Source of the DNA: Microcella flavibacter
GTDB lineage: Bacteria; Actinomycetota; Actinomycetes; Actinomycetales; Microbacteriaceae
Assembly: GCF_012530535.1 (NCBI RefSeq)
Contig: NZ_CP051299.1
Location: 1,240,001 to 1,304,000, forward strand
Direction of reading: 5' to 3'
DNA length: 64,000 nucleotides
The notes under the pieces are model-generated. The model was not told the origin of the DNA and searched no databases. It saw only the letters and a program-made list of their open reading frames with translations. Of this stretch, positions 5,120 to 34,569 are shown in pieces (position 1 is the stretch's first letter; the number at the start of each line of letters is the position of its first letter). A program made the translations under genes and the position numbers.

Positions 5120-6012
5120 CCGCAGCCCCCGCCCCGATCGGCCCCCGCCCCGGCGACGCCGACCCGCCCCTCGCCGCGGTCGAGCAGATCGTCGCCCTGG
5201 CCCTCGCCGAGGACGCCCCCTGGGGCGACCTGTCGAGCGAGGCCTCGACCCCGGCGTCGGCGACCGCGACCGCGCGGCTCGTCAGCCGCGTCGACGGGGT
5301 GCTCGCGGGCGGGCTCGCGCTCGCCACCGCGTTCCGACGGGCCGACCCCCGCATCGAGGTGCGCCTGCTGCTCGCCGACGGCGCGCCGCTCGCCCCCGGA
5401 GCCGACGTCGCCGTCGTCGAGGGCCCGGCCCGGGGCATCCTCACCGGCGAGCGCGTCGCGCTCAACCTCGCCCAGCGCCTCTCCGGCGTGGCGACGCTCA
5501 CGCGCGCGTACGTCGACGCCGTCGCGGGCACGGGGGCCCGCATCGTCGACACCCGCAAGACGACCCCCGGCCTGCGCGTGCTCGAGAAGGCGGCGGTGCG
5601 GGCGGGCGGCGCGCACAACCACCGGCACTCGCTCTCGGACGCGGTCATGCTGAAGGACAACCACCTCGCCGTGCTCGCGGCCGAGGGGCTCGGCGTGGCC
5701 GAGGCGATCCGCGCGGTGCGCAGCCGCATCCCGCACACCACGACGCTCGAGGTCGAGGTCGACCGCCTGGACCAGCTCGACGCGGTGCTCGAGGGCGGCG
5801 CCGACATCATCCTGCTCGACAACTTCGCGCCCTCCGACATCCTCACCGCGGTCGCGCAGATCGACGGCCGGGCCCTCATCGAGGCCAGCGGGGGAGTGAC
5901 CCTCGGCACCGTGCGCGCGATCGCCGAGACCGGCGTCGACATCATCTCGGTCGGCGCGCTCACCCACTCCGCCCCGGCGCTCGACCTCGGGCTCGACATC
6001 GCCGTGCGATGA
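5116..6012 (+). CDS. nadC: Quinolinate phosphoribosyltransferase NadC
   Basis: A 298-residue enzyme that converts quinolinate and PRPP to nicotinate mononucleotide, CO2 and PPi. Diagnostic motifs are EDAPWGDLSS near the N-terminus, GERVALNLAQRLSGVAT, the substrate-binding DTRKTTPGLRVLEKAAV, GGAHNHRHSLSDAVMLKDNH, the acidic EVEVDRLDQLD, and the C-terminal EASGGVTLGTVRAIAETGVDIISVGALTHS. Length and motif order match the family. It starts with an ATG overlapping the nadB stop and overlaps the desulfurase gene by four bases, so the whole operon is translationally coupled. Confidence 0.97.
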   Translation: MTAAPAPIGPRPGDADPPLAAVEQIVALALAEDAPWGDLSSEASTPASATATARLVSRVDGVLAGGLALATAFRRADPRIEVRLLLADGAPLAPGADVAVVEGPARGILTGERVALNLAQRLSGVATLTRAYVDAVAGTGARIVDTRKTTPGLRVLEKAAVRAGGAHNHRHSLSDAVMLKDNHLAVLAAEGLGVAEAIRAVRSRIPHTTTLEVEVDRLDQLDAVLEGGADIILLDNFAPSDILTAVAQIDGRALIEASGGVTLGTVRAIAETGVDIISVGALTHSAPALDLGLDIAVR

Positions 6013-7184
6013 CCGACCGCCTCATCGACCTCGACCAGTCGGCCACGACGGCGGTGCGCCGCTCCGTGCTCGAGGCGATGTGGCCGCACCTGACCGGCGG
6101 CTACGGCAACCCCTCGAGCACGCACGCGCTCGGTCGCGCGGCCGCGTCGGCGCTGCAGGATGCCCGCGCCCGCGTCGCCGCCGCCTGCGGGGTGCGCCCG
6201 GCGCAGGTGGTCTTCACCAGCGGCGGCACGGAGGCCGACAACCTCGCCGTCATCGGCCTGACCCTCGGAAGCGTCCGAGCCGGCCGTGACCGCCACATCA
6301 TCGTGGGGGCCGTCGAGCACGAGGCCGTGCTCGAGGCCGCCGACCATCTGCGCCGCTGGCACGACGTCGAGGTGACCCTCGCGCCCGTCGACAACTCAGG
6401 AGTCGTCGACGTCGCGGCCGTCCGCGCCGCGCTTCGGCCGGGCACCGCGCTGGTCAGCGTGCAGCACGCGAACAACGAGGTCGGCACCCTGCAGCCCCTG
6501 CGGCTGCTGGGCGCGGCGGCGCACGAGGTCGGGGCGCTGCTGCATGTCGACGCCGTGCAGACGGCGGGGTGGGTCTCGCTCGACCCGGTGAAGACTCCTG
6601 AGTTGTCGACGGCCGACGCGATCAGCATCAGCGGGCACAAGCTCGGCGCGCCGAAGGGCGTCGGTGCGCTCATCCTGCGCACCGCCGCGCCGCTCGAGCC
6701 GCTCGTGCACGGCGGCGGGCAGGAGCGCGACCGGCGCTCGGGCACGGAGAACGTCGCCGGCGCCGTCGGGCTCGCGACCGCGCTCGAGCTCGCCGAGGCC
6801 GAGCGCGACGGGGCCGCCGTGGACGCGGTCGCCGCACGCCGCGACCGCTTCATCGCGCACGTGCTCGAGGCCGTGCCCGAGGCCCGGCTCACCGGGCATC
6901 CCGAGAACCGCCTGCCCGGCCACGCCTCGTTCGTCGTCGAGGGGCTGGGCGGCGAGCCGCTGCTCATCGCGCTCGACGACCGCGGCATCATCTGCTCCAG
7001 CGGCTCGGCCTGCGCGGCCGGCCGCGACGACCCCTCGCCGGTGCTGCTGGCGATGGGGTTCGAGCCCGACCTCGCTCGCACGGCCCTGCGCTTCAGCTTC
7101 GGCACGGCGACGACCGAGGAGGAGCTCGACGCCGCGGTCGCCGCGCTGCGCGACTCGGCGGCCGGGCTGCGCGCCCTGCGCTGA
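6009..7184 (+). CDS. NifS/IscS-type cysteine desulfurase, last gene of the nad operon
   Basis: A 391-residue PLP enzyme that takes sulfur from cysteine. It shows [25 protein letters not shown], the [11 protein letters not shown] loop, [14 protein letters not shown] with the PLP lysine, the RSGTENVAG loop, and the persulfide cysteine in SSGSACAAG. Placement directly after nadABC (four-base overlap) suggests it builds the NadA Fe-S cluster, as proposed for other nad-linked NifS proteins; a general role cannot be excluded. Two arms of the 15-bp inverted repeat are read in frame: the first as VDNSG in the family PVDxxGxVD stretch, the second as TPELST before the SGHK loop. Confidence 0.93.
6387..6610. 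repeat. Inverted arm pair D inside the cysteine desulfurase gene (224 bp span)
   Basis: Both arms are exact: GTCGACAACTCAGGA at 6387-6401 and TCCTGAGTTGTCGAC at 6596-6610. They fit the protein family without changing length: VDNSG sits where NifS proteins usually read VDxxG, and the second arm falls in the variable stretch before SGHK. The arms appear to have arisen in place, not by insertion. Confidence 0.85.
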
Positions 7185-31457: not shown

Positions 31458-32693
31458 TTGACGGACGCCCCGCATCAGCCCGGCTCCACCGCCCGCCCCC
31501 TGCGCATCCTCATCGGCGGTGACACCTTCGCCCCCGACGTCAACGGCGCCGCCAAGTTCGCCGAGCGCCTCGCCGGTGGTCTCGTCGAGCGCGGCCACGA
31601 GGTGCACGTCGTCGCCCCGCGCCCCGAGGGCGGGCCGAACGTCACGCGCGTCGAGGAGCACGAGGGTCAGCGCATGACGGTGCACCGCCTGCGCTCGTGG
31701 CGCTGGCACCCGCACCCCTGGCTGCGCTACGCCCTGCCGTGGCGCATCGAGCAGAACGCCGCTCGCATCCTCGACGAGGTGCGGCCCGACGTCGTGCACT
31801 TCCAGTCGCACATCGTCGTCGGGCGCGGTCTCGCCCGGCAGGCGGCGAAGCGCGGCATCCGCATCGTCGGCACCAACCACTTCATGCCCGACAACGCGAT
31901 GCAGTTCACGCCGTTCATCGGCGGTCTGAAGGACAGCGCGATCTCCGCGATGTGGAAGGCCGCCGGGCGCACCTTCGGCCTCGCCGCCGAGGTCACCACG
32001 CCGACCCGCAAGGCGGCCGACTACCTCGAGAAGTACACCGAGCTGCGCGGCGTGCGGGCGATCAGCTGCGGCCTGCACATCGACAACTACACCCCCTCGA
32101 TGCAGCCGCGCGACGAGAACGTCGTGCTGTTCCTCGGCCGGGTCGAGGCCGAGAAGCACATCGACGAGATGCTGCGCGCGGTCGCCCGCCTCGACGCCGC
32201 CCTCGCCGTGCAGGTCGAGATCATCGGCGACGGCGAGCAGCGCCCCGCGCTCGAGCGGCTCGCACGCGAGCTCGGCATCGCCGACCGCGTGCACTTCGCC
32301 GGCTACGCGCCCGAGGAGTACCTCACGCAGCAGCTCACGCGTGCGACGGTCTTCGCGATGCCGTCGATCGCCGAGCTGCAGTCCATCGCGACGATGGAGG
32401 CCATGGCGAGCGGCCTGCCCGTCGTCGGCGCCAACGCGATGGCCCTGCCGCACCTCATCCACGACGGCGAGAACGGGTTCCTGTACGAGCCGGGCGACAT
32501 CGACGGCTTCGCCGAGCGCCTGAACCGCATCCTCACGATGCCGCACGACGAGCTGCTCGTGCTCAAGCGCGAGAGCCTCGCGATCGTCGAGGCGCACGAC
32601 ATCAACCGCACGCTCGACACCTTCGAGGCGCTGTACCGGGGCGAGCAGGTCGACGACACCGTGGTCGACGGCGTGGGCACCACGAGCCACTGA
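31458..32693 (+). CDS. GT4-family glycosyltransferase (diacylglycerol/phosphoinositol-glycosyltransferase-like)
   Basis: A 411-residue GT-B enzyme. The N-terminal acceptor domain begins LRILIGGDTFAPDVNGAAKFAERLAGGLVERGHEVHVVAP, and DVVHFQSHIVVGRGLA follows. The nucleotide-sugar domain has VVLFLGRVEAEKHIDEMLRAV, VHFAGYAPEEYL and the E-x7-E motif in PSIAELQSIATMEAMASGLPVVG. The opening resembles lipid glycosyltransferases of actinobacteria, so a glycolipid product is likely, not proven. The TTG start has AAGGA eight bases upstream, like the GT2 gene. It stands alone. Confidence 0.87.
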   Translation: MTDAPHQPGSTARPLRILIGGDTFAPDVNGAAKFAERLAGGLVERGHEVHVVAPRPEGGPNVTRVEEHEGQRMTVHRLRSWRWHPHPWLRYALPWRIEQNAARILDEVRPDVVHFQSHIVVGRGLARQAAKRGIRIVGTNHFMPDNAMQFTPFIGGLKDSAISAMWKAAGRTFGLAAEVTTPTRKAADYLEKYTELRGVRAISCGLHIDNYTPSMQPRDENVVLFLGRVEAEKHIDEMLRAVARLDAALAVQVEIIGDGEQRPALERLARELGIADRVHFAGYAPEEYLTQQLTRATVFAMPSIAELQSIATMEAMASGLPVVGANAMALPHLIHDGENGFLYEPGDIDGFAERLNRILTMPHDELLVLKRESLAIVEAHDINRTLDTFEALYRGEQVDDTVVDGVGTTSH

Positions 32694-32801
32694 GGCGGCC
32701 GCACCTTCGGCACGCCGATGCCGCTGACGAGCGGGGCGGATGCCGCTGCCGCGGCCGCGCGCTCGGTAGAGTGTGAGCGGGCGCGCCGCCGCGGGCCCCA
32801 C

Positions 32802-32875
32802 GGGGCGGTAGCTCAGCTGGTCAGAGCAGCGGACTCATAATCCGTCGGTCACGGGTTCAAGTCCCGTCCGCCCTA
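32802..32875 (+). tRNA. tRNA with CAT anticodon, probably elongator tRNA-Met
   Basis: The acceptor GGGGCGG pairs with CCGCCCT (first pair G-T). The anticodon arm GCGGACTCATAATCCGT gives CAT, and the T-arm is ACGGG TTCAAGT CCCGT. No CCA is encoded. The C1-A72 mismatch of initiators is absent. A tRNA-Ile2 with lysidine-modified CAT cannot be excluded by eye. A TAGAGT -10 box lies at 32767-32772. Confidence 0.85.
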
Positions 32876-32906
32876 CGCTCACCGTCGCGCCGCCGAGGAG
32901 GTCGTC

Positions 32907-33686
32907 ATGGGATCCGAGTCGGATCGCGGAGGGGCCGAGCGGCTGCTCGCCATCGTCAACGCGGGCACCGGCCTCGTGCTGCTCGTCGCGGCGGTCGTCG
33001 CGGCCTCGGTCGGGGCATCCCGCGATCGTCTGCTGCTGCCCGCCGAGGCCTCGTTCGGAGCGGGGGAGGGCGCGCCCGTGCGCCTGGTGCTCGCGCAGGT
33101 CGACCTGGTGCTCGCGATCGTCGTGCTGCTCGCCTTCACCGCGCTGCTGCGCTTCGCGTCGTCGCGGCCGGCGGCGAAGGGCGCCTGGCTCGACGCCGTC
33201 GCGCGCGATCGCCACGGTCTGCGCTGGATCGAGCTCTCGCAGCTGAGCGGCGTCACGGTGTTCCTCATCGGGCAGCTGAACGGCATCGCCGAGATCCCGG
33301 CGCTCGTGCTGCTGTACGCGATCGGGGCGGCGGCGCCCCTGCTGCTCGTGCTGCATGACCGCCGCACCGAGCCGGGGCGCCGCGGGCTGCTCGCCTACTC
33401 CTTCGGCACCGCGATCGCCATCGTGCCCTGGGGCGTCATCGCCTTCGCGCAGGTGGGCGGCGGGCTCGCGGGGGCCGGGCCGAGCGTCGCGGTGCGGGTC
33501 GTCACGATCGTCGCCCTCGTGCTGAGCGCGCTCGTGTGGGCGGCCGTGTGGGTCGCCGCCCGGCGTCCGGGGGCGGCCGAGCATCCCGCCGCCCGCGCCG
33601 AGGTCGTGCAGCTGGTGCTGCTCGCGCTGCTGCCGCTCGTCCTCGCCGCGCTCGCCCTGCTGCTGCTCGTGCCCGCCGCGGCCTGA
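32907..33686 (+). CDS. Seven-helix membrane protein resembling heliorhodopsin but lacking the retinal lysine
   Basis: A 259-residue protein with seven hydrophobic segments (about 11-35, 58-85, 106-125, 127-150, 160-184, 193-217, 232-256). Residues 106-132, LRWIELSQLSG ... FLIGQLNGIAEIPALV, follow the heliorhodopsin helix 3-4 pattern (R-W-[VI]-E-x-S ... LIxQxxGIxDIxAL), and YSFGTAIAIVPW at 164-175 matches its FGxxxGIVPW helix 5 motif. The last helix (ending VPAAA, like the heliorhodopsin C-terminus) has no lysine; the only Lys in the protein is K91 in a loop, so retinal cannot attach as a Schiff base. ATG 32907 has GAGGAGG five bases upstream. Function unknown; family membership is from memory of heliorhodopsin sequences. 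Confidence 0.6.
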   Translation: MGSESDRGGAERLLAIVNAGTGLVLLVAAVVAASVGASRDRLLLPAEASFGAGEGAPVRLVLAQVDLVLAIVVLLAFTALLRFASSRPAAKGAWLDAVARDRHGLRWIELSQLSGVTVFLIGQLNGIAEIPALVLLYAIGAAAPLLLVLHDRRTEPGRRGLLAYSFGTAIAIVPWGVIAFAQVGGGLAGAGPSVAVRVVTIVALVLSALVWAAVWVAARRPGAAEHPAARAEVVQLVLLALLPLVLAALALLLLVPAAA

Positions 33687-33741
33687 GCCGGGCAGCGCGT
33701 CGATTCGCGTCGAGCGCCCTCGACTCGACAGGATGGACGGC

Positions 33742-34569
33742 ATGAGCAGCGCATCCCCCGCCCCCGCCAGCCCCGCCGAGCGCTACGCCGTGTTCCGGCA
33801 GCGGCGCGACCTCGCCGCGGTGCAGCCGCAGGGCCCGCTCGCGCTCGTCAACACGCAGTGGGTCGACGGCGAGCAGAGCATCTGGGGCGTGCCCGGCCGA
33901 TGGGCGCCCGCGCCCGAGGGCGGCCTGCTGCTGACGGCGGAGGCGGCGGACGGCATCCGTGTGGACGACGCGCTCGTCGACGGCACGGTGCGCGTGCGGG
34001 GCAACGACGACGCCGCGCCGAGCACGATCGTGTTCGACGAGCACACCACCGGCTTCGTCATCGCCGGCGAGGGCGGCGCCTACGCCCTGCGCGTGTGGGA
34101 CGCCGAGAGCGAGGCCATCGCGAGCTTCGGCCGCATCGACGCCTTCGATTACGCCCCCGCCTGGGTGCTCACGGGCACGTTCCGCGAGATCGAGGGCGGC
34201 ACGACCGTCGGCTTCGAGCACCTGAAGGACGAGGGACGCACCCGCGACGAGGTCGTGCCGGGCGAGATCCGCTTCACCCACGAGGGCGTCGAGTACGACA
34301 TCGCGGCGTTCAAGTCGGGCCGCGCGCTGCAGCTCGTCTTCAGCGACGCGACCGCCGGCGACAGCACCTACTCGGTCGGCCGGTTCCTCTTCATGGCGCC
34401 GAACCCCGACGGCACGATCACGCTCGACTTCAACACGGCGATCCTGCCGCCGTGCGCCTTCAGCTACAACTTCAACTGCCCGCTGCCGCCGAAGCAGAAC
34501 CGTTTCCCCTTCGCGATCGAGGCCGGCGAGAAGAACGTGCTCAAGGCCGACGGCTCGCTCCTGCACTGA
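33742..34569 (+). CDS. DUF1684 family protein
   Basis: A 275-residue soluble protein. The family is recognised from the C-terminal FLFMAPNPDGTITLDFNTAILPPCAFSYNFNCPLPPKQNRFPFAIEAGEK, whose NPPCA/FxxCPLPPxxNRL-type ending is the DUF1684 hallmark, and from RFLFM and the central SFGRIDAFDYAPAWVLTGTF. No catalytic role is established for this family. ATG 33742 is preferred because AGGA then sits about eight bases upstream; ATG 33733 has no room for a ribosome binding site. It is cotranscribed at most with the seven-helix protein (55-bp gap). Confidence 0.85.
   Translation: MSSASPAPASPAERYAVFRQRRDLAAVQPQGPLALVNTQWVDGEQSIWGVPGRWAPAPEGGLLLTAEAADGIRVDDALVDGTVRVRGNDDAAPSTIVFDEHTTGFVIAGEGGAYALRVWDAESEAIASFGRIDAFDYAPAWVLTGTFREIEGGTTVGFEHLKDEGRTRDEVVPGEIRFTHEGVEYDIAAFKSGRALQLVFSDATAGDSTYSVGRFLFMAPNPDGTITLDFNTAILPPCAFSYNFNCPLPPKQNRFPFAIEAGEKNVLKADGSLLH

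Follow-up and report, generated by a model that had tools for sequence, protein, structure and literature searches.

The question raised by this locus is what a protein with the fold of a heliorhodopsin (HeR) does once it has lost the Schiff-base lysine. The window, a stretch of 64,000 nucleotides from Microcella flavibacter, contains on its forward (+) strand, to which all window coordinates given below refer, an open frame at 32907-33686 that runs from an ATG at 32907 to a TGA at 33686 and encodes a lysine-less HeR paralogue of 259 aa, termed here P0001. A Shine-Dalgarno-like GAGGAGG is read directly before the ATG (32895-32901), and the GC contents at codon positions 1, 2 and 3 (82, 51 and 95%) are within the range of three neighbouring genes. 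The 3' end of a tRNA-Met (CAT) gene (32802-32876), a syntenic neighbour in Microcella and not part of the protein, is located 30 bases upstream, and a DUF1684 gene (33733-34569), a frequent Microcella neighbour, follows downstream. No promoter or terminator consensus was found in 32650-33800. Because only 30 bases separate the tRNA-Met from the start codon, P0001 may be transcribed by read-through from the tRNA-Met promoter.

P0001 is a genuine HeR homologue, with a similarity far above chance. The profile search put forward as a check by the first-pass annotation, which had proposed a HeR-like seven-helix protein with no retinal-binding lysine, gave a match to Pfam Heliorhodopsin PF18761 at E 7.5e-17 (61.9 bits, cut-off 26.7), and PF01036 (type-1 rhodopsin) is absent from the Pfam matches of P0001 up to E 10. 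Comparison with the 48C12 chains by phmmer gave E about 2e-12, while the score on NCBIfam HeR NF038020, 66.3 bits, is under the 100-bit equivalog cut-off. PF18761 is also matched at E 0.001 by 34 of the 36 members of alignment A3. The AlphaFold2 model of P0001 (pLDDT 89.7) possesses seven helices, in agreement with the seven hydrophobic segments that had been annotated, together with a HeR-type A-B beta hairpin (residues 43-50 and 58-66) and a short B-C helix (88-99). All of its best matches among solved folds are HeRs, and the comparison points to a HeR-type fold rather than a different helix packing. The motifs quoted in the annotation are present as RWIELS (106-111), LIGQLNGIAEIPAL (120-133) and FGTAIAIVPW (166-175). 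Full-length profile homology, the seven helices, the A-B beta hairpin, the B-C helix and the VPW of helix 5 are features that P0001 has in common with the canonical HeRs 48C12 and TaHeR. The presumed inner loops contain 15 K+R and the outer loops 3, which, as a charge count only, would be compatible with the N-in topology of canonical HeRs. The resemblance to HeRs at the end of the protein turned out to be weak, as the Pfam match extends no further than residue 205 and the positions aligned to S237 and W246 are L and A. By analogy with HeRs, P0001 is probably dimeric.

K91 (33177-33179), situated in the B-C loop, is the only lysine of P0001. P243 (33633-33635) is aligned to the Schiff-base K241 of 48C12 with a register that is uncertain in this leucine-rich helix, and helix 7 is without lysine, so that, as had been concluded earlier, no covalent Schiff base can form. 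P0001 thus lacks both the Schiff-base lysine and the SxxxK motif of canonical HeRs. The survey of orthologues revealed that the lysine is lost throughout a clade and that the Schiff-base residues are eroded with it: a helix-7 lysine is found in 0/54 lysine-less rows and in 38/38 other rows of a hand-picked table with few near-copies. This table leaves out L022 and L093 (cut by contig ends), L019 and L091 (frame runs on), several near-duplicates, the disrupted L110 and the stop-bearing L073. The last, a lysine-less copy of Salinibacterium xinjiangense (5950-6591), is interrupted by an in-frame stop close to helix 5 and could represent either a pseudogene or an error of assembly. The K241 position is occupied in the 54 lysine-less rows by T (15), G (9), A (7), P (6), S (4), V (4), L (3) and others. 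A sequencing error or frameshift at the end of helix 7 is ruled out, the lysine being missing in 54 rows from many species, and its relocation to another helix is rejected for the clade, since 37/54 rows have no lysine at all.

In 48C12 numbering, all 38 lysine-bearing rows contain H23, H80, N101, R104, E107, Y108, S111, F206, Y226, E230, S237, K241 and W246. This is in contrast to the lysine-less clade, in which H23, H80, N101, Y108, S111, N138, F206 and Y226 are eroded; among the 54 rows H80 is mostly replaced by R (36), and N101 is kept in 6, F206 in 2 and Y226 in 1. Several of the residues listed belong to the hydrogen-bond network described for 48C12 (PMC9726877). In total, 34 columns that are at least 95% conserved in the 37 canonical rows drop below 50% in the lysine-less rows. 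At the same time, eight columns are newly fixed at 90% or more (L122, N123, Y135, G174, A177, Q180, T199 and L203), and five of these residues, Y135, G174, Q180, T199 and L203, occur in 0/37 canonical rows and distinguish the clade from canonical HeRs. The near-invariant new core corresponds to N125, Y137, G176, A179, Q182, T200 and L204 of P0001. N125 and G126 (33279-33284) are both invariant in 54/54 lysine-less rows. The glycine of V173-P174-W175-G176 (33423-33434) and T200 (33504-33506) are likewise present in 54/54 lysine-less rows and 0/37 canonical rows, while the Q182 position (33450-33452) is Q in 50/54 and E in 4/54 of the former and Q in 0/37 of the latter.

A single change is enough to divide lysine-less from lysine-bearing rows in the quick tree of all 92 rows as well as in the careful tree of 83 rows, which was obtained by dropping 11 of the 92, including the long-branched lysine-less L048 and L102, and adding two references; this change of the lysine is present in 100% of 200 bootstrap trees. 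When the careful tree is rooted on TaHeR, its 48 lysine-less rows group in one clade (100/95) that lies within HeRs and has the lysine-bearing L089 of Cryobacterium algoritolerans as its sister (100/99). Canonical Microbacteriaceae HeR is in turn the sister group of the clade plus L089 (99/99, with one outgroup row, TaHeR, setting the root). With the root placed on this single outgroup, the lysine-less proteins descend from within HeR. P0001 and the copy of its closest relative, G005, group with copies from Microbacterium-labelled MAGs and not with other Microcella copies (96/92); their descent may be partly non-vertical, or fast evolution may misplace both.

L089 (5989-6759) has a single lysine, the Schiff-base one. 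It keeps K241, H23, H80, E107, Y108, S111, S237 and W246, yet carries seven of the eight new residues, all except Q180. L049, with Arg at the Schiff-base site, possesses the same seven new residues together with Glu at 180. The residue patterns of L089 and L049 therefore indicate that most of the new core preceded the loss of the lysine, from which we infer that function changed first and the chromophore was lost second. We also note a relative of L089 in C. breve ERMR7:08 (L110) that has Arg at the site, a frame disrupted upstream, and downstream neighbours in common with L089.

The reading that we favour, with roughly even confidence, is that of a HeR paralogue which gained a new core, then lost its lysine a single time, and is now a regulator or sensor free of a Schiff base. 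The paralogue would have arisen in the ancestors of Microbacteriaceae or close to them, and would have acquired the new core of helices 3-6 with the Schiff-base lysine still present; the lysine would then have been lost once and the gene retained in many genera. The product would be a seven-helix membrane protein, a regulator or a ligand sensor, whose conformation may be set through the new core by a partner protein or a small hydrophobic molecule rather than by photoisomerised bound retinal. AbHeR was reported to alter the kinetics of glutamine synthetase, lowering Km, in the dark as in the light (PMC9529153), and such light-independent effects of a HeR on its partner support the reading as a regulator. 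The old network partly persists in the lysine-less rows (E107 in 34/54, with E109 of P0001, 33231-33233, as the retained equivalent of this counterion, R104 in 32/54, E230 in 25/54 and W246 in 22/54), which counts against the favoured reading. More tentatively, a photoreceptor may have been turned into a chemoreceptor or regulator, in which the new core recognises another ligand, held non-covalently in the former retinal cavity, with Cryobacterium L089 as a living intermediate.

The first-pass annotation had gone further and placed the rhodopsin fold in a light-independent use. The HeR fold without Schiff-base lysine stands, but light independence is not established, because the missing lysine excludes a covalent Schiff base and not non-covalent retinal or carotenoid, and genes for type-1 rhodopsin and beta-carotene dioxygenase (BCD) co-occur. 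Likewise, the window itself may be free of retinal and carotenoid genes, as had been observed, but the same genome contains a type-1 rhodopsin, a BCD and a phytoene-synthase-family gene, each outside the window. Among 299 family genomes, uncorrected for phylogeny, type-1 rhodopsin is found in 21/25 lysine-less genomes versus 60/274 others, and BCD in 15/25 versus 14/274. Counted by genus, also uncorrected, the values are 9/10 versus 16/68 for rhodopsin and 8/10 versus 4/68 for BCD. Canonical HeR, in contrast, is tied to rhodopsin (34/42 versus 47/257) and hardly to BCD (7/42 versus 22/257, phylogeny again uncorrected). This association with rhodopsin and BCD could mean a role linked to retinal or carotenoids, which weighs against the favoured reading. 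Non-covalent binding of retinal, a carotenoid or a retinal precursor in the old pocket is possible, though rather unlikely; the protein would then serve the type-1 rhodopsin of the genome as a carrier, store or antenna, or act as a UV/blue sensor. Besides the enrichment of both genes, that of BCD persisting by genus, and the different behaviour of canonical HeR, this explanation gains from a Microcella genome that is 99% complete (G015), in which matches to the lysine-less gene, canonical HeR, type-1 rhodopsin and BCD are all missing together. Nevertheless, rhodopsin and BCD are both missing from 4/25 lysine-less genomes, and BCD is found in only 15/26 Microcella genomes. F206, which by alignment takes the place of W182, a residue that packs against retinal in bacteriorhodopsin, is retained as F in only 2/54 lysine-less rows, and the association, which ignores species phylogeny, may reflect shared lit habitats.

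The lysine-less gene is present in 23/26 Microcella genomes: 14/26 carry it together with a canonical HeR, 9 carry it only, 3 have neither, and canonical HeR alone occurs in 0. Of these copies, 22/23 lysine-less (L022 ends earlier) and 14/14 canonical ones were read through helix 7. In the family sample, 25/299 Microbacteriaceae genomes from 10 genera carry the gene, and every copy counted (25 lysine-less, 42 canonical) was read. Canonical HeR is absent from 17 of these 25 genomes, including the complete genome of the window, which suggests that the lysine-less protein can act without it. A scan of contigs, restricted to its peptide patterns, gave 49 loci in Microcella, Cryobacterium, Microbacterium, Agromyces, Frigoribacterium, Salinibacterium, Subtercola, Curtobacterium, Frondihabitans, Labedella and Amnibacterium records and in MAGs with other labels or none; two of the loci, both from Cryobacterium, have Lys or Arg at the Schiff-base site. 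Members outside the family were sought in 297 genomes of the order sample, of which 22 match; the 21 besides the window's own (20 of them extra-family) are all lysine-bearing. A scan of viral contigs gave 53 pattern matches and, within the patterns used, no relative, and a phage origin was rejected. HeRs are described as dimers (PMC9385722), and the co-occurrence of both genes in 14/26 Microcella genomes, where the canonical one is never found without the other, would suit a lysine-less protein that heterodimerises with canonical lysine-bearing HeR and tunes it. This is improbable, given that canonical HeR is missing from 9/23 Microcella carriers (3 of them incomplete MAGs), and from 17/25 family-sample carriers, among them the window's own genome.

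The lysine-less rows are depleted in lysine as a whole, which constitutes 0.14% of their residues versus 2.6% in the 38 lysine-bearing rows, and contain 6.6% arginine versus 3.7%. Since lysine deserts have been tied to bacteria with pupylation (PMC10665810), a general avoidance of lysine, for example as an escape from pupylation, might have purged the Schiff-base lysine along with the rest. There is little to recommend this explanation: L089 holds the Schiff-base lysine alone, so that the other lysines were lost first, and the new core is left unexplained.

Comparison of 15 Microcella loci reveals a common arrangement, with a glycosyltransferase upstream in 14, tRNA-Met in 14 and DUF1684 at most 2 kb downstream in 14; DUF1684 was not found in the 1.5 kb past the gene of G005. 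The syntenic neighbours are 67-95% identical to those of the window, whereas the gene product itself is 29-44% identical to P0001 within the genus, with the exception of G005 (81%). The gene thus evolves fast, and this also counts against the favoured reading, as does the 29-45% identity to P0001 of 34 of the 35 other rows of alignment A3. Across genera the neighbours mostly differ and the recurrent ones are mostly genus-specific, a further point against the favoured reading, and a conserved operon partner was rejected on this ground. Of the 10 neighbour proteins annotated, those of the window are a DUF1684 protein, a glycosyltransferase, a GAF protein and a NIPA/EamA-like protein, and those of other loci are an acetyltransferase, a DNA-alkylation-repair-like protein, two ABC-transporter proteins, and DnaJ-C28-like and DUF222 proteins. 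Estimates of dN/dS (Nei-Gojobori, uncorrected for codon bias) are 0.17-0.40 in 16/16 lysine-less pairs and 0.03-0.16 in 6 canonical HeR pairs; the lysine-less gene is maintained and selected, not decaying, under a constraint weaker than that of canonical HeR, and the higher ratio is one more point against the favoured reading. Since the clade shares a lysine-less HeR fold under purifying selection, P0001 is neither a sequencing error nor a lone mutant. That it is a decaying, functionless HeR copy under relaxed constraint, as fast evolution, the in-frame stop of L073 and the disrupted frame of L110 with Arg at the site might suggest, is improbable in view of these dN/dS values, the eight columns newly fixed at 90% or more and the one syntenic site retained in 14/15 Microcella loci.

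Rhodopsin folds that have lost the retinal lysine are already published. The Rh-noK proteins of betaproteobacteria, Guillardia and the fungal opsin-related group share this loss with P0001 (PMC7714340); six of them are expressed in Guillardia, and regulation of the plasma-membrane H+-ATPase is ascribed to those of fungi. The Rh-noK described in that paper are type-1 sequences, however, while P0001 matches PF18761 and not PF01036. The same source refers to a survey (Yamauchi 2019) in which about 600 of 5,558 microbial rhodopsin genes, with HeRs counted among them, are lysine-less, and lysine-less HeRs may already lie within those genes. In freshwater FArhodopsins, most members of a paralogue group are without the helix-G lysine and have Q, T, L or R instead (PMC10308929), but these are described as a proteorhodopsin family beside a flotillin gene, and there is no flotillin among the 10 annotated neighbours here. 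Viral lysine-less HeR-like proteins have been reported as well: in 23 betachloroviruses Asn takes the place of the lysine (PMC12390592). By description these are algal-virus genes, whereas T, G, A, P, S, V, L and others occupy the position in the bacterial clade. We did not find a description of a bacterial lysine-less HeR clade in the open-access literature among the matches listed, and the clade may be new. Two HeR surveys, as described, retained only sequences with a helix-7 lysine (PMC9601134, PMC8612252), so that lysine-less relatives would have been discarded by design. The function of HeRs is still largely open, and a chromophore-less clade on the HeR scaffold separates the role of the scaffold from that of light, while the lysine-bearing intermediate makes the switch from a chromophore protein testable.

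Two further observations concern lysine-bearing HeRs. W246 is not universal in canonical HeRs, as Tyr is found in 4/28 extra ones that were read, namely L179, L182, L188 and L194 (SLIAKTALAYQV), all of which are lysine-bearing. In addition, a second, divergent type of lysine-bearing HeR is present alongside canonical HeR in small-genome Microbacteriaceae (L150-L153).
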